A DNA stretch of 64,000 nt, from NCBI RefSeq assembly GCF_013403245.1, contig NZ_JACBNQ010000011.1:1-64000 (forward strand), given 5' to 3'. The notes below the pieces were generated by a model. The model had not been told where the DNA came from. It searched no databases and worked only from the letters and a program-made list of their open reading frames with translations. The position numbers were made by a program, and so were the translations under genes. The DNA comes from Sedimentibacter hydroxybenzoicus DSM 7310. Its GTDB lineage: Bacteria; Bacillota; Clostridia; Tissierellales; Sedimentibacteraceae. This document shows, in pieces, positions 46,433 through 64,000 of this stretch. Within the stretch, counting starts at the first letter, position 1, and each line of letters begins with the position of its first letter.

Positions 46433-46608
46433 TAGTCTGTGAAAACATTTCTTTAGTATGTTAATATATTATCACACTCTTGCTTTTTTGGCTATATAAA
46501 AATATATATATATTAAAAGAGTTGGTGTCTGCCCCCACTGATAGAAAGAAAACTTTCAGTTGTATAAAAAAAGCACCATAATTAATGGCGCATTTTTTAA
46601 TATTTCAA

Positions 46609-46708
46609 TTACAGCATAAGCGACTGACACCAAATTAAAATTTGGGTCATCTGCTTTCACTTACAGCATAAGCGACTGACACCAAATTAAAATTTGGGTC
46701 ATCTGCTT
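46609..46708. repeat. Two 48-bp direct repeats with internal hairpin, after fabZ
   Basis: Identical 48-bp units at 46609-46656 and 46661-46708, separated by 4 bp. Each contains an imperfect stem centred on CCAAATTAAAATTTGG. The second ends 2 bp past the fabZ stop, so the pair may terminate the fab operon. A 14-nt part of the unit (GCAGATGACCCAAA) recurs at 63222-63235. The rest of the 372-bp gap 46339-46710 holds the HxlR promoter and a further weak A/T-flanked hairpin at about 46567-46600. Confidence 0.85.
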
Positions 46709-48386: not shown

Positions 48387-49118
48387 CTACATATAAAATC
48401 CGCCGTTAACAGACAATATCTGCCCCGTTATATACGACGCTTTATCAGAAATCAAAAATTCTACCGCATCTGCAATATCATCAGGTTGACCCAGACGTTG
48501 CAGAGGAATGTTTTTCATCATTTCATTTCTTATCTCTTCCGGAATTTTATCCGTCATGTCCGTTTGAATAAATCCGGGCGCTATGGCATTTACAAGTATA
48601 TTTTTTTTCCCCAGCTCTCTTGCCATAGATTTTGTCATACCAATAATACCTGCTTTAGAAGCAGAATAATTTACCTGTCCCGCATTTCCCGCAAGTCCCA
48701 CAACGGATGATATATTAATAATTCTTCCATTTTTTTGTTTGAGCATTCTTTTAGCTATGTGCTTGCAGCAATTAAATGTTCCCTTTAAATTAATGTCGAT
48801 TACCTGATCAAATTCTTCCTCTGACATCAGCGGAAGAATATTATCCTTGGTAATACCTGCATTATTCACTAATACATCTACAGATCCAAAGCTATCATAT
48901 GCTTCATCAATCAATTTTTTTGCATCGTCATAACTGGAAACATCACATTTGACTATAATATTCTCAGTTTCTTTGTTTGCAAAATTATTTACTAACTCTT
49001 CCATGGAGCTCGTATTGCTTCTGTAATTTAAAACCAAGTTATAACCAAGTTCATTTAATCTTGAAGCAATAACTGCACCAATACCTTTAGAAGCACCGGT
49101 AATAATCGCCGTTTTCAT
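48387..49118 (-). CDS. fabG: 3-oxoacyl-ACP reductase FabG
   Basis: 243 residues, short-chain dehydrogenase. NAD(P) site TGASKGIGAVIA, NNAGIT, catalytic Ser in NISSVVGL and Y-x3-K in VNYSASKAG. It reduces 3-oxoacyl-ACP with NADPH. GGAGGAG before the ATG. The gap to fabD upstream is filled by one copy of the hairpin repeat family (49131-49192). Confidence 0.96.
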   Translation of the reverse strand: MKTAIITGASKGIGAVIASRLNELGYNLVLNYRSNTSSMEELVNNFANKETENIIVKCDVSSYDDAKKLIDEAYDSFGSVDVLVNNAGITKDNILPLMSEEEFDQVIDINLKGTFNCCKHIAKRMLKQKNGRIINISSVVGLAGNAGQVNYSASKAGIIGMTKSMARELGKKNILVNAIAPGFIQTDMTDKIPEEIRNEMMKNIPLQRLGQPDDIADAVEFLISDKASYITGQILSVNGGFYM

Positions 49119-49130
49119 ATTTCTCCTCCT

Positions 49131-49192
49131 CTAACGGGGACATTCCTCCTATCCTCAAAGACTTTCCCTGATATAAAGAGATGTGTCCCTTT
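49131..49192. repeat. Hairpin repeat family, copy A (fabD-fabG gap)
   Basis: About 62 bp, sharing with copy B (59719-59780) the core ACGGGGACATTCCTCCTATC exactly and much of the rest. On the minus strand GGGACA at one end can pair with TGTCCC at the other, so it folds into a long hairpin. It fills nearly all of the intercistronic gap, and its minus strand carries an SD-like AGGAGG. Confidence 0.8.
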
Positions 49193-49197
49193 TCATT

Positions 49198-50139
49198 TTA
49201 AGCATAAGTAAGCTGAAGATACTGTTCTAAGGCTGCAATACTGTCTATATTTATTGATTTAACATTTTTATCTATTTTCTTCAAAAAGCTTGATAATGAC
49301 TTTCCCGGTCCTACTTCTACAAATGTGTTAACTCCGTCAGCTATCATTTTTCTGACACAGGCTTCCCATCTTACAGGATTATAAACTTGTTTTTCTAATT
49401 TGTCCGCTATTATTAAATCATCATTGTAATATTCCGTATCCACATTTGAAATAACATTACAAGATGGTTTTTTAAACTTTATCTTTGATAAATCCTCTTT
49501 CAGCTTATTTCCTGCAGAGATAAGCATAGAAGTGTGAAACGGTGCACTAACCTGCAGCTTTACAGCTTTTTTGATGTTAAACTCTGCTGTTTGACCAAGT
49601 GCATTTTCGATTGCTGCACTTTTCCCGCCAACAACTATTTGCCCGGGACAATTAAAGTTTGCCGGCTCCAATAATCCAAACCTCTCTGTAACAGTCTTGC
49701 AAAAACGAATTGCGTCTTCGTCAGTGCATCCCATAAGCGCAAGCATCCCGCCTTCACCTAGAGGAACAGCATTTTGCATGTAATTTCCTCTGTTATAAAC
49801 AAGCTTAACTGCTGTTTCGAAGTCCATTGCGCCTGCCGCTGTCAAAGCAGAGTATTCACCCAAACTTAAGCCGCCCATTACAACAGAATTATTGTTTGAA
49901 TTTTTCTTTATAATTTCATAAATAGCCATACAGACCGTCAGCAAAGCCGGCTGTGTAATTTTAGTTATACTCAAATCTTCATTAGGTCCGTCAAAGCACA
50001 ATTTTGTTATGTCAAAGCCAAGCGCTTCATTTGCTCTTTGGAATATTTCCTTGCTTTCTTTAAAATTATCATAAAAGTCCTTTCCCATTCCTGCGTATTG
50101 AGCGCCTTGTCCCGGGAATACAAAAGCCGTTTTACTCAT
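49198..50139 (-). CDS. fabD: Malonyl-CoA:ACP transacylase
   Basis: 313 residues. FVFPGQGAQYAGMGKDF, the nucleophile motif GLSLGEYSALTA and VSAPFHTSML with the catalytic His. It loads malonyl from CoA onto ACP. AGGAGG is well placed before ATG 50139, and the gene overlaps fabK by 8 bp. Confidence 0.97.
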   Translation of the reverse strand: MSKTAFVFPGQGAQYAGMGKDFYDNFKESKEIFQRANEALGFDITKLCFDGPNEDLSITKITQPALLTVCMAIYEIIKKNSNNNSVVMGGLSLGEYSALTAAGAMDFETAVKLVYNRGNYMQNAVPLGEGGMLALMGCTDEDAIRFCKTVTERFGLLEPANFNCPGQIVVGGKSAAIENALGQTAEFNIKKAVKLQVSAPFHTSMLISAGNKLKEDLSKIKFKKPSCNVISNVDTEYYNDDLIIADKLEKQVYNPVRWEACVRKMIADGVNTFVEVGPGKSLSSFLKKIDKNVKSINIDSIAALEQYLQLTYA

Positions 50140-57683: not shown

Positions 57684-58712
57684 TTATTGTTCTTTCTTTC
57701 TGAATAATCCTGCTTTTTTAGCAAAATAAAATACGACTAATACAGAAATTGTTGCAAGCATGATTCCTCTGAAAGGATCGGCATCAGCTATTATAACTGC
57801 AACAATTCCGAGCATCATACTGATAAAGTACATTGTCAGGACTGTCTGTCTTTGATTAAGTCCGAATTTCATCAGCTTATGATGAAGATGCTCTTTGTCT
57901 GCTTGCATTATTGGTTTTTTGTTTACATATCTTCTGATAATTGCAAATGCCGTATCAAATATTGGTAATCCCAGAGCGAATATAGGAACTGCCAATGCAA
58001 CAGCTGCAACGCTTTTTACCATACCAAGAACAGATGTGACCGCAAGCATATATCCTAACAATAAGGCTCCTGTATCTCCCATAAATATTTTTGCAGGATT
58101 AAAGTTAAAGGGCAAAAACCCCAAGGATGCACCTGCAATAATTGCGCATTGCATTACAATGAAATCATGTCCCAAATTTGCTGCGGTAAATAAAAGTGTT
58201 GTGGCTGCAATGCTTGCAACTCCTGAAGCAAGACCATCCAAACCGTCAATTAAATTTATTGTATTTGTTATTCCAACCAGCCAAAACAATGTTATGGGAT
58301 ACGATAACCAACCCAATAAATAACTCATACCAGTATCAGAAAGAGGATTCGTAATGAAATGAATCCTTACTCCTCCCTGTATGGCAATAATCGCCGCAAC
58401 GATTTGTAATAAAAGCTTAACTTTAGCAGGCATATCGTACATATCATCCACTATCCCTGCCAATACAACAATTGTAGCGCCAGCCATAATTGATATGTTC
58501 GTCCTTGTATGAGGCATGTATACAAACATGCATGCCATAATTGCAATATAAATTGCCAAGCCGCCAAAATAAGGCATCGGCTTACTATGTATTTTTCTTG
58601 AATCCTTTGGTACGTCCAATGCCCCGACCTTAATAGCAAGTCGTCTTGCAGGCGGAGTCATAATAAATGATATTATTACAGCTGAAATAAAAGCTACAAA
58701 ATAATTAGCCAT
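57684..58712 (-). CDS. Undecaprenyl-phosphate N-acetylglucosaminyl 1-phosphate transferase (WecA/TagO family)
   Basis: 342 residues, about ten membrane helices. Conserved loops: HSKPMPYFGGLAIY, the DD motif in GIVDDMYDMPAK, NLIDGLDGLA and FMGDTGALLLGY, and HLHHKLMKFG near the end. It puts the first sugar phosphate on undecaprenyl phosphate for teichoic acid or surface polymer synthesis. It follows rpiB by 1 bp. MraY is excluded by the HIP-like HLHH element. Confidence 0.93.
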   Translation of the reverse strand: MANYFVAFISAVIISFIMTPPARRLAIKVGALDVPKDSRKIHSKPMPYFGGLAIYIAIMACMFVYMPHTRTNISIMAGATIVVLAGIVDDMYDMPAKVKLLLQIVAAIIAIQGGVRIHFITNPLSDTGMSYLLGWLSYPITLFWLVGITNTINLIDGLDGLASGVASIAATTLLFTAANLGHDFIVMQCAIIAGASLGFLPFNFNPAKIFMGDTGALLLGYMLAVTSVLGMVKSVAAVALAVPIFALGLPIFDTAFAIIRRYVNKKPIMQADKEHLHHKLMKFGLNQRQTVLTMYFISMMLGIVAVIIADADPFRGIMLATISVLVVFYFAKKAGLFRKKEQ

Positions 58713-58713
58713 A

Positions 58714-59166
58714 CTATTCCTCTACTCTAAGTTTTTCTATATCCGTTATTTTATTTACTCTATTCTCATGTCTTCCACCTTCAAACTCGGTTGAAAGCCA
58801 TACATCGACTATATCTACTGATAACCCATTGCCTAAAACTCTTGCTCCCAATGCCAGCATGTTGGCATTATTATGCATCCTTGACATTTTGGCCATATAT
58901 TCATTGGTGCAAAGAGCACATCTTATTCCTTTTACTTTGTTTGCAGCTATGGATATACCTATACCTGTTCCACAAATTATAATGCCTCTGTCAGCCTCGT
59001 TATCCGCTACCATCCTTGCTGCTCTTTCTCCAAAATCAGGATAATCAACAGAATCTGTATTGTAAGCTCCTATATCCGTTATATCATACCCGCAATTTAT
59101 CAGATGCTTTTTTATTGCTTCCTTTAACTCAAATCCTCCGTGGTCACAGCCCAGTACTATTTTCAT
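58714..59166 (-). CDS. rpiB: Ribose-5-phosphate isomerase B
   Basis: 150 residues, RpiB/LacAB family. Starts KIVLGCDHGGFELKEAI, with the active-site Cys in GIIICGTGIGISIAANK and KVKGIRCALC. It interconverts ribose-5-P and ribulose-5-P. GAGGAGG precedes ATG 59166. Gene order tsaC-phosphatase-rpiB-wecA-wecB is common in Clostridia. Confidence 0.95.
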   Translation of the reverse strand: MKIVLGCDHGGFELKEAIKKHLINCGYDITDIGAYNTDSVDYPDFGERAARMVADNEADRGIIICGTGIGISIAANKVKGIRCALCTNEYMAKMSRMHNNANMLALGARVLGNGLSVDIVDVWLSTEFEGGRHENRVNKITDIEKLRVEE

Positions 59167-59231
59167 TTAATCCTCCTCATAACGATTGGTCAGAATTGAT
59201 TTGCAATGGATAATCAATTGAAATTTCTGAC

Positions 59232-60854
59232 CTATTGCTTATCTAAAGCCTTAATTATTTTAGATAATTGTTCTTCTATCATATTTTCTGTTTCTTCATA
59301 TGTTTTTATATTCATGCCATATGGATCTTCGATATCTAAGCTTATGTTCTCCGTTCTTTCATTGTTTACTATAAGAGCGTATTCCTTTAAAGTATATACC
59401 TTATCTGAATATTCGGGCAACGCGCTTGTTATAATTTTTTTGTGACCGTCCGTCATAGTTAATATTAAATCAGTATCCTTAATGATTTCTTCAGTTAACT
59501 GTCTTGCCTTATGATTTTTTATATCTATACCTTTATTAATCAATACTTTAATTGCATTTTCATTTGCTTGTTGTCCCTCAAAAGCACTTATTCCCGCCGA
59601 GGAAACATTTATATTTTCAATATTATTTTCTTTTAAGAGAAATTTCAATATTCCCTCTGCCATGCTGCTGCGGCATGTATTACCGGTACAAACAAATAAA
59701 ATATTCATATTCCACCTTCTGACGGGGACATTCCTCCTATCCCACAGAGACTCACCCTGTGTGAGAGGTGTGTCACTCTTCCTTAAAATAATAGTTTGGC
59801 TTGATGCCTTGCTTAATCTGTTCATTATAGCTTTCCCCAAACCACTGTCATCAACTTGTTCAGCAAGTATTAAGTCAATCCCCATATGGTCAAAATCTCT
59901 TAATACCTTAAATAAGTTAGACGAAATTGTAAGGGGTTTTGTTCTGTCCCCAACCATTATTTTTGTTTTTCCTATATAATATGCATCCGTTTGGACAGTG
60001 GACATTATTCCCGCTTTATATCCTTCGGAACTGAATTTTTCATAATCATTGTTTATCTTTTCAATAATTTTTTCGATTGGGCCCTTATATAAAATCACTC
60101 TCGCTTTAGGTGAATAGTGTCTGTATTTTTGACCCGGAGATTTAGGAATTAATTTGTCATCATTTTTTATTATTGAAGGATCATAATCACATTTACCAAG
60201 TACGTTTATTATATCCTCTTTTGTAACCTTGCCGGGCCTTAAAATCATGGGAACTTCACTTGTCATATCAACAACTGTAGATTCAAGCCCTATATCGGTG
60301 CTTCCGCCGTCAATTATCATGTCAACCTTTCCCATCAAATCATCTATTACGTGTCTTGCTTCAGTCGGGCTTGGTTTTCCTGATATATTTGCACTTGGCG
60401 CTGCTATGGGCTTCTTACTTTCTCTTATAAGTGCCCGTGCAATTTTATTTATTGGAAGACGAATTGCTGCCGTTTGAAGACCTGCTGTTATCTTATCAGA
60501 TAAAATATCTTTTTTATTCAATATCATGGTTAACGGTCCAGGCCAGAATTCATCGGCCAAAAGCTTTGCATTTTCCGGAATATCAGAAACTAAATTATAT
60601 AGCTCACTGTAATCAGCTATATGTACAATTAAAGGATTGTCCTGGGGTCTTCCCTTTGACTTGAAAATTTTCTCCACCGCTTCATCGTTTAATGCATCTG
60701 CACCGATACCGTAAACAGTTTCAGTAGGAAAAACAACAACTCCACCCTTATTTATAATTTCAGAAGCTTCTTTTATTATATTATAATCAATATTGTCAGG
60801 ATCCATCTTGACAATATTTGTATTAATTGTTTCATTTTCTTTATTTTTGTTCAT
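59232..60854 (-). CDS. Fused threonylcarbamoyl-AMP synthase (TsaC/Sua5) and low-molecular-weight protein phosphatase
   Basis: 540 residues in one frame. Residues ~20-215 are a YrdC domain (KGGVVVFPTETVYGIGADAL, KGRPQDNPL, SANISGKPSPTEA) and ~220-358 the Sua5 C-terminal domain. They make threonylcarbamoyl-AMP for tRNA t6A. Residues ~359-379 are the in-frame translation of hairpin repeat copy B. Residues 383-540 are a complete low-molecular-weight phosphatase (P-loop VCTGNTCRSS, acid loop DPYGMN), YwlE-like, acting on phospho-arginine or tyrosine. The two are normally separate, adjacent genes. Met383 (59708-59706) has an SD-like AAGG, so a separate phosphatase may also be made. Confidence 0.9.
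   Translation of the reverse strand: MNKNKENETINTNIVKMDPDNIDYNIIKEASEIINKGGVVVFPTETVYGIGADALNDEAVEKIFKSKGRPQDNPLIVHIADYSELYNLVSDIPENAKLLADEFWPGPLTMILNKKDILSDKITAGLQTAAIRLPINKIARALIRESKKPIAAPSANISGKPSPTEARHVIDDLMGKVDMIIDGGSTDIGLESTVVDMTSEVPMILRPGKVTKEDIINVLGKCDYDPSIIKNDDKLIPKSPGQKYRHYSPKARVILYKGPIEKIIEKINNDYEKFSSEGYKAGIMSTVQTDAYYIGKTKIMVGDRTKPLTISSNLFKVLRDFDHMGIDLILAEQVDDSGLGKAIMNRLSKASSQTIILRKSDTPLTQGESLWDRRNVPVRRWNMNILFVCTGNTCRSSMAEGILKFLLKENNIENINVSSAGISAFEGQQANENAIKVLINKGIDIKNHKARQLTEEIIKDTDLILTMTDGHKKIITSALPEYSDKVYTLKEYALIVNNERTENISLDIEDPYGMNIKTYEETENMIEEQLSKIIKALDKQ
59719..59780. repeat. Hairpin repeat family, copy B (inside the tsaC-phosphatase fusion)
   Basis: Same family as 49131-49192, sharing the exact core ACGGGGACATTCCTCCTATC. 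On the minus strand GACA-ca-CCTC can pair with GAGG-aa-TGTC, and CTCAC/GTGAG forms an inner stem. It is read without stops in the tsaC frame. Confidence 0.8.
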
Positions 60855-60953
60855 TTATAATTGTTCTCCATAGTTTCCCTATAGTCTCATGCTATTCTCT
60901 CTTATTGCCTGCTCATTGCAAATCTATAGTTTATCCACTGCCGGTCTACTGAT

Positions 60954-60982
60954 ATTATATACTACATTATCTCCATAAACAA
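60954..60982 (-). promoter_or_regulatory. Promoter of the tsaC-rpiB-wec cluster
   Basis: TTGTTT (60982-60977), 17 bp, TATAAT (60959-60954), 100 bp before the start codon. The 237-bp gap 60855-61091 also contains ATTGCAAATC (60915-60924), which recurs at 57666-57675 and inverted at 59198-59207. Confidence 0.55.
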
Positions 60983-61103
60983 GAATTTACTTCTTAATAT
61001 TTTCAACAAAGGCTTTGACCTCTATTCAATAATTTTACTAAGTTTTATTACTTAAAAGAACAACATGTACATATATATTAATAAATGACAATTGAGGAGG
61101 ATA

Positions 61104-61844
61104 ATGGTGGATATACTATATTATTTTATAATCGGGTTTATTGTTGGTGGTACCGGAACATTTATAGGAGGTTTGTTATCTGTTATGATTCCGAAGCCTA
61201 CTGACAAAACTACGGCTTCAATGCTTATGCTTGCGGCGGGCATAATGCTTTCTGTTATTTCCTTTGACCTCATGCCCCAGGCATACGAAATAGGCGGATT
61301 CTTTATAGTTACATTAGGTCTTGTATTCGGTTTATTTATAGTATTTTTTGCTGAAAAATTAATACCTATGAATAAATTTGATAAATACAAGGGCAAAAAA
61401 TCAAACTATATAAAAATGAGCTTAATTATAATAATAAGCATGAGCTTGCATAATTTCCCTGAAGGTATTGCAGTTGGTTCAAGTGCGGTTTATTCCGAAA
61501 ATTTAGGCATAAAAATAGGAATACTCATTGCTGCTCATGATATTCCCGAAGGCATGAGCGTGGGTATTCCGTTAATTATGGCCGGCGCTTCGCCTCTTTC
61601 AGTCCTGCTTATAACATTGATGACCGGTATGCCGACTGCCTTTGGAGCAGTATTTGGAGCGCTGCTCGGAAACATATCGAAGTATTTCATAGGCTTTTGT
61701 CTTTCTGCAGCAGCAAGCAGTATGCTCTATGTTACATCGAATGAGCTTATACCGGAGGCAAATTTGTTGCACAGGGGAAAAAGTAACGCCGTTTTTATTT
61801 TAATAGGTTTTATTTGTGGCTGCTACCTGTCATTTGCAATGTAA
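61104..61844 (+). CDS. ZIP-family metal transporter
   Basis: 246 residues, about eight membrane helices. The family metal-binding helices are clear: SLHNFPEGIAVGSS and AHDIPEGMSVGIPL. Members (ZupT/GufA type) import zinc, iron or other divalent metals. GAGGAGG ends at 61100; ATG 61104 or, with better spacing, GTG 61107 is the start. Convergent with the DUF3343 gene, one base apart. No metalloregulator or recognisable operator is adjacent. Confidence 0.9.
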   Translation: MVDILYYFIIGFIVGGTGTFIGGLLSVMIPKPTDKTTASMLMLAAGIMLSVISFDLMPQAYEIGGFFIVTLGLVFGLFIVFFAEKLIPMNKFDKYKGKKSNYIKMSLIIIISMSLHNFPEGIAVGSSAVYSENLGIKIGILIAAHDIPEGMSVGIPLIMAGASPLSVLLITLMTGMPTAFGAVFGALLGNISKYFIGFCLSAAASSMLYVTSNELIPEANLLHRGKSNAVFILIGFICGCYLSFAM

Positions 61845-62075
61845 TCAGCAATCAGTGTAAATATTTTCATATTGAAGATTATTATTATTTATGATAGTAA
61901 TTAATTTTTCCATATCCTCTTTATAAAATCTGATACACAATCCGCAGCTCGAACTTATGCTCCTTGGTACAGGAATTATTTTATACCTGAAATCATATTT
62001 TTTTAATGCAGTTTCTACCTTCATTGCATAAGAAACTGATTTAAAAGTCATGTAATTAAATTCATTCATCTTCAT
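61845..62075 (-). CDS. DUF3343 (putative Se/S carrier-like) protein
   Basis: 76 residues. The segment PVPRSISSSCGLCIRF is the DUF3343 hallmark, with C-x2-C and Gly between. The family is described as putative selenium/sulfur carriers and occurs in selenium-using bacteria, but no activity is established. It is translationally coupled to apbE (ATGA overlap). The presence of a selenocysteine enzyme in this genome makes the carrier idea attractive, though coupling to ApbE rather than to selenium genes is unexplained. Confidence 0.8.
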   Translation of the reverse strand: MKMNEFNYMTFKSVSYAMKVETALKKYDFRYKIIPVPRSISSSCGLCIRFYKEDMEKLITIINNNNLQYENIYTDC

Positions 62076-63285: not shown

Positions 63286-64000
63286 CTATCTTACGTTAGC
63301 TATTGCTTCTTTTATTACTGCCTGATATCCTTCTACAGTTATTGTTACTGTTGATGTTAATTCAGGTACATCTGGAACTGATTTATGATTAGCGTCTCTT
63401 TCTTTAACCTTTAATCCTGTTATTTCATCAGCAGTCTTACCAACCATCCAGTCTTCAAATGCATACATTTGTTCAAACCATTCTTTTCCTATTGATGATG
63501 CGCCTACCATTCCGTAGCCTTCTTTAAGCTCTTTCTTAGTTTGAGGCTCAACTGCTAAATCAGTAGTAAGTGTTCCGTTTTCATCATAGTTAACTTTAAC
63601 CTGAGCAACGTCAACTATTGATTTAACTACTTTACCGTCTTTATCTACTGCAACTGCAGTCATGTAAGTATCCATCTGAGCCATTGGTTTTACGTCAGCT
63701 GTTTTATCTTTTGAGCTTCCTATATGAGTTTCAACTCCTAAACCAACCTTTGCAGCTCCTACAGCATCTTCTGCATTTTCCCAAGCTTCTTTAACAGCCG
63801 CTATATAGCTTTCCACTGTTATAGTTACAGATGATGTCAACTCAGGTACATCAGGTACATTCTTATGAGATTCGTCTCTTTCTTTTACCTTTAAGCCTGC
63901 TATTTCATCAGCTGTCTTACCAATCATCCAGCTTTCGAATGCTGCCATTTGTTCAAACCATTCTTTTCCTATGGATGATGCACCTACCATACCATAGTCA
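63286..64000 (-). CDS. 3' part of a tandem-repeat extracytoplasmic protein of unknown function
   Basis: Partial; the reading frame is open through the right edge, so the start is outside. The visible 238 residues contain a near-duplicate unit twice, about 160 residues apart, each with YGMVGASSIGKEWFEQM, a W-M-x-GKTADEI segment, GLKVKERD, PDVPELTS and a V-T-I-T-VE-Y ending. Between lies a segment with GLGVETHIGSS, AVAVDKDGKVVKSIVD and Q-x-KVNYDENGTL. Similar units occur in clostridial lipoproteins I cannot name. Alignment of the GASS motif with the SGAT flavinylation site is suggestive only. It sits 114 bp upstream of apbE on the same strand, followed by its own terminator. No signal peptide can be seen because the N-terminus is missing. 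Confidence 0.75.
   Translation of the reverse strand, partial: DYGMVGASSIGKEWFEQMAAFESWMIGKTADEIAGLKVKERDESHKNVPDVPELTSSVTITVESYIAAVKEAWENAEDAVGAAKVGLGVETHIGSSKDKTADVKPMAQMDTYMTAVAVDKDGKVVKSIVDVAQVKVNYDENGTLTTDLAVEPQTKKELKEGYGMVGASSIGKEWFEQMYAFEDWMVGKTADEITGLKVKERDANHKSVPDVPELTSTVTITVEGYQAVIKEAIANVR

Follow-up and report, generated by a model that had tools for sequence, protein, structure and literature searches.

The tsaC (sua5) and ywlE genes of Sedimentibacter hydroxybenzoicus DSM 7310 are joined, within the 64,000-nt stretch of DNA analysed here (hereafter, the window), in a single intact frame of 540 codons that runs from ATG to TAG with no internal stops (59232-60854, minus strand) and passes in phase through a copy of a short repeat; that is, the fusion frame is confirmed as real in the assembly. 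Comparison of the locus and of the repeat copies across related genomes suggests that the fusion likely came about by loss of the tsaC stop codon at an element sitting in its usual niche.

A 540-codon frame crossing a repeat copy

Codons 1-357 of the frame (59784-60854, minus) make up the TsaC/Sua5 part, an L-threonylcarbamoyladenylate synthase with both domains complete, as delimited by Pfam, TIGR00057 and the ends of homologs. PF01300 and PF03481 both score above their cut-offs, as does TIGR00057, and the Pfam domains on the 540-codon product are Sua5_yciO_yrdC at 32-208, Sua5_C at 210-352 and LMWPc at 385-532. The 60-nt repeat core follows at codons 358-377 (59724-59783, minus; nhmmer, with a covariance-model match at 59718-59789), and a GTCAGA end, common to several other copies, extends this copy to codon 379. 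The linker between the two enzyme parts comprises 25 codons, the first 20 of which are the repeat copy, while the remainder (codons 378-382; 59709-59723, minus) reads GTC AGA AGG TGG AAT, i.e., the GTCAGA repeat end and then AGGTGGAAT, which holds the Shine-Dalgarno (SD)-like AGGTG of ywlE; the ywlE ATG comes next, as codon 383. An example of a linker-derived peptide of the predicted fusion is SDTPLTQGESLWDR. Codons 383-540 and the stop (59232-59708, minus) encode a YwlE-type low-molecular-weight phosphatase (PF01451, alignment), assigned to this family by its LMWPc domain and by a P-loop, CTGNTCR, that fits the low-molecular-weight phosphatase motif C(X)4CR(S/T) (PMC8001253, excerpt). In the alignment, this P-loop carries Thr at position 5, the sequence criterion for the YwlE type, and a P-loop Thr is reported to steer YwlE toward phosphoarginine (PMC8001253, excerpt).

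An earlier note, made from the letters of the window, had described the frame as leading from TsaC through the repeat into a complete YwlE-like phosphatase, and this description holds, with all domains kept in the intact 540-codon ORF. Its placement of the repeat at residues ~359-379 was correct within two residues, its Met383 start was exact, and its view of the repeat as coding sequence in the linker agrees with the match of codons 358-377 to the repeat family by both nhmmer and the covariance model. Downstream of the fusion lies an ORF (58714-59166, minus; ORF list) that we take to be rpiB-like from sequence likeness.

An assembly or sequencing indel, in which case tsaC would really stop where the repeat begins and two separate proteins would result, needs to be weighed against this frame, since one base would suffice and many other copies of the repeat begin beside TAG, TAA or TGA. 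We consider such an error improbable, however. Mis-joining of copies is unlikely because the best other match, among the 43 matches (E ≤ 1) that BLAST with the window copy gave in the whole genome, is 89% identical; the codon score of the fused frame (0.33) lies inside the 0.09-0.37 range of the ORFs compared; and further examples of a frame that enters a copy are seen elsewhere in this genome and in others (below).

When searched against its own genome, query P0001 matched only the tsaC-ywlE locus and one repeat fragment, and the fused gene therefore appears to be the sole TsaC source of the genome. TsaC is essential in most bacteria. An AlphaFold2 model of the product (26 aligned sequences) had a mean pLDDT of 78.1 and a pTM of 0.52, with the linker (residues 359-380) below pLDDT 50 between folded parts. 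The linker is thus predicted to be loose, although four other stretches also fell below 50 and a low linker pLDDT was to be expected anyway, because the alignment rows lack the linker except for two residues of L040, a fusion from another genus (below). Free YwlE is probably made as well, from the internal start, because the SD-like site and ATG of ywlE survive. The presence of such a start had been anticipated in the earlier note, and the spacing from AGGTG to ATG is close to that of a relative (4 nt in the window vs. 3 nt in L018). A promoter scan returned 18 sites vs. 10.2 expected and was uninformative; its best site (11 of 12; 59824-59851, minus), in the 3' end of tsaC upstream of ywlE, falls in conserved tsaC coding sequence.

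The tsaC-ywlE junction in relatives

Comparison of the locus with close relatives, which the earlier note had proposed as a check, supports its reading. The two genes are separate in 21/21 other Sedimentibacter genomes read (out of 24 in the genus; neither G004 nor G007 yielded a match, and G011 was left out). In the alignment, their tsaC stop falls at codon 358, where the repeat begins, and ywlE starts 1-9 nt after that stop in all 21. Ten of these genomes have a stop that merges into the ywlE SD as TGAGG; codon 358 of the window frame, in their stop's place, is AGG, the first repeat codon. Because the repeat starts where 21/21 relatives have the tsaC stop, a change at this stop is the most plausible history, in line with the insertion at the tsaC stop suggested in the earlier note. 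We infer the pre-insertion state from relatives of the genus, none of them conspecific, whose TsaC is ~70-78% identical to that of the window.

Our wider survey covered 61 genomes. The locus was read in 50, and both genes were present at it in 47; only two of these 47 are fused (this genome and G025, of the same family but another genus), ruling out a conserved ancient fusion. The G025 fusion (L040) has the same two domains in the same order and in a single frame, but the join is direct, with no repeat, and the phosphatase ATG is gone; the covariance model found 0 repeat copies in G025. An apparent fusion in L064 was dropped due to a run of N at the join, and the long open frames of G035, G037 and G038 are not fusions, given that stops are present. 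Fusions were also absent from ten further loci, nine picked from a listing of at least 218 genomes and one re-fetched (L089); two of the ten belong to genomes already read, one of these being L089, which has no adjacent phosphatase. We found no report of a Sua5/YrdC-phosphatase fusion in the open-licence literature.

The independent and direct fusion in G025, with its lost ywlE ATG, together with a P-loop Thr that fits phosphoarginine specificity and one match in the window's own genome to PF00217, the guanido-kinase family of McsB, could be taken to indicate selection for coupling t6A synthesis to protein-arginine dephosphorylation. Against such an adaptive origin, which we regard as unlikely, stand the rarity of the fusion among the 47 genomes and the pTM noted above, which indicates no joint fold; further, tsaC and ywlE are close neighbours in most genomes of the order that were read, so that fusion by chance is possible. 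The fusion is probably near neutral. It also provides a natural case for testing how well TsaC and an arginine-phosphatase-like enzyme function when joined.

The repeat family and where its copies lie

The repeat is ~60 nt long, imperfectly palindromic and dispersed in the genus Sedimentibacter. Copies were gathered by iterative profile search in fetched stretches and then with covariance model R1, which gave at least 88 copies in this genome (E ≤ 0.01), a lower bound since scoring covered only 150 of the 1042 first-look candidates. Under stricter filters, the repeat was present in 21/25 genomes of the genus (six with a single match) and in 0/36 genomes outside it. A 17-base probe (≤3 mismatches) hit two sites in the window vs. 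0.02 expected. The second window copy (49135-49195, minus) lies, as the earlier note had it, in an ordinary gap between recognisable ORFs, 2 nt past the stop of a fabD-like ORF (49198-50139) and 16 nt ahead of the start of a fabG-like ORF (48387-49118), both named by sequence alone. We detected no Rfam 15 match in 58000-62000 of the window at E ≤ 1, no clear target-site duplication in the copy flanks read by eye, and no evident description of the repeat in the open-licence literature. Two other repeats of the window are a tandem pair of a 52-nt unit (46603-46706; 98% identical) just past a fabZ-like ORF, which holds TTTGGGTC, and a 213-nt direct repeat (63305-63517 and 63785-63997; 80% identical) that represents a duplicated protein segment within one ORF.

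The earlier note had called the element a hairpin repeat. Its dispersed nature is clear, and the hairpin fares differently depending on what is compared. The tsaC-ywlE copy folded alone is no stabler than its dinucleotide shuffles (z 0.11), whereas across 30 copies 94.3% of the cells in a 10-pair stem are paired, and 13 stem cells are changed on both sides vs. 3.1 in shuffles. Stem pairs changed on both sides (3 vs. 2.0; 115/500 shuffles) and further pair types (10 vs. 8.9; 150/500 shuffles) were not outstanding, so two of the five measures are not clearly above shuffles, and kinship alone can exceed such shuffles. What points to a stem is therefore the comparison of the 30 copies and not the energy of the window copy.

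With regard to placement, 52 of 83 placed copies lie between co-directional genes, and the 31 others are in divergent (9) or convergent (2) gaps, inside an ORF (4) or without a near gene pair (16). These 83 are nhmmer matches (E ≤ 1e-3) in the fetched stretches, not matched singly to the 88 covariance-model copies, and the counts rest on gene calls from ORFs and codon scores, tRNA genes not being among the calls. Of the 52 copies in co-directional gaps, 47 are in sense orientation; counted per independent gap, the figure is 37/41 (p 1e-7). Among the 37 sense gaps, the upstream stop falls at -28 to +8 nt of the copy in 21, and the copy ends 10-35 nt ahead of the downstream start in 22. The tsaC-ywlE copy is placed like the fabD-fabG copy, minus the upstream stop. 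An array of 12 tRNA genes (L099; G000 contig 70, ~127.1-128.6 kb) also holds 7 repeat matches, two of them weak and partial, that occupy 6/11 gaps on the same strand as the tRNAs.

Orientation set by replication is weakened as an explanation of the sense bias by lagging-strand genes, where the copy follows the gene in 4/4 gaps, the leading strand being inferred from GC skew with a small margin for two of the four (L284 and L294). As a tentative reading, which we hold at well below even confidence, the repeat might be dispersed as an element of the RNA level, entering or being retained in the form of sense RNA at stop/start junctions and between tRNA genes, tracking the gene and not the fork. 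Under this reading, its role may be that of an intercistronic module for processing or for the tuning of translation, or it may spread via a step that recognises mRNA spacers, and its siting at stop codons may recurrently rewrite protein C-termini and occasionally fuse neighbouring genes. The strong sense bias thus opens a testable question, namely whether such repeats are RNA-level modules or passive DNA passengers.

Several genes do end inside a copy. Four are in this genome (an ABC transporter in L112, RsgA in L104, and ORFs in L241 and L246), and at four loci of other genomes, namely L130 (G005; uvrB-like by eye), L174 (G001), L178 (G010) and L191 (G011), the copy supplies the last residues and the stop; the latter come from a scan of 37 loci with 43 copies, almost all of them in other genomes of the genus. 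A prfB-like frame through a copy (L135, G012) was dropped, as the frame contains a run of N ahead of the copy. A second frame of the present genome that crosses a copy encodes a BcsA-like glycosyltransferase with a PilZ domain (L122:1052-3115, G000 contig 34), in which the repeat forms an in-frame insert of 21 residues. This insert is missing from 5/5 aligned homologs (four genomes), two of which, both from one genome, are ~70% identical; two weaker matches (G396 and G499) were left out of the alignment. The gene scores below the codon-score cut-off and, for this reason, its copy is missing from the four counted inside ORFs, while the other three of these (L096, L232 and L234) are close to the 5' end of their ORF and may precede its true start. 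Thus, a graded series is visible in one genome, with the stop ahead of the repeat, within it, or not reached before the next gene.

Given that 32/90 forward frames are open across 30 copies, in-phase read-through is not improbable and selection is not needed to account for it. The events that we propose under the preferred reading, in which an element in its customary place goes along with loss of the stop codon, would be as follows. The commonest site of the repeat is a co-directional gap, in sense orientation, close past the upstream stop and shortly ahead of the downstream ribosome-binding site, and the tsaC-ywlE copy occupies just such a site, with the tsaC stop missing, either replaced at insertion or lost afterwards. 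One stop-free frame of the copy happens to be in phase with ywlE, such that ribosomes on tsaC would translate the element as a 25-residue linker and produce a 540-residue TsaC-YwlE protein, with the surviving SD-like site and ATG providing for some free YwlE. In other words, a concrete path may be traced from spacer repeat to protein linker to two-enzyme fusion, with its stages visible in one genome, and it is the element family that deserves further work more than the fusion itself.

Comparison with known repeats

Among known elements, REP sequences mobilised by a REP-associated tyrosine transposase (RAYT) resemble the Sedimentibacter repeat in being short, high-copy, imperfect palindromes, and the genome has five Y1_Tnp matches. 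The RAYT criterion, described for gammaproteobacteria, is a RAYT gene flanked by two inverted repeat copies (PMC2817692, excerpt). None of the 32 Y1_Tnp loci of the genus (for 41 matches; flanks to ~1.5 kb, some ended by contig ends) showed such flanking copies, however, and the best nhmmer E for a copy near them was 0.57. Further, the repeat lacks the GT(A/G)G head, its consensus beginning AGGAAGGGGGACACACC, and closely spaced copies run head-to-tail and do not form alternating clusters. Mobilisation by a RAYT is weakened by these results, and we consider it very unlikely. The Y1_Tnp genes of L010-L013 (G000) are flanked by other sequences, of GGGGAC type or ACGTCCC type, which are perhaps their own REP families; near the Y1_Tnp gene in L010 there is also a GGGTC stretch similar to that of the 52-nt tandem unit.

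ERIC/IRU and Correia/NEMIS elements are likewise small, structured, intergenic repeats, and the orientation of ERIC is reported to matter for its effect on mRNA (PMC2229807, excerpt). The Sedimentibacter repeat is shorter and strongly sense-biased close past stops; it is set apart from these elements by description, not by sequence. The likeness to Rickettsia palindromic elements (RPEs) is that of a dispersed palindromic repeat of one genus with some copies in frame in proteins, here in the tsaC-ywlE and BcsA-like ORFs. RPEs are ~150 bp and nearly half of them are in ORFs (PMC10969869, excerpt), whereas the Sedimentibacter repeat is ~60 nt and found mostly between cistrons, in sense orientation; its copies in tsaC-ywlE and the BcsA-like gene are read in different frames with no conserved peptide, and the in-frame share is not high (4/83 copies called inside an ORF). 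Finally, in-frame fusions through MITEs and RPEs have already been described (PMC10969869 and PMC2229807, excerpts), and what appears less usual here is the sense, stop-adjacent niche of the element together with the visible series from spacer to linker.
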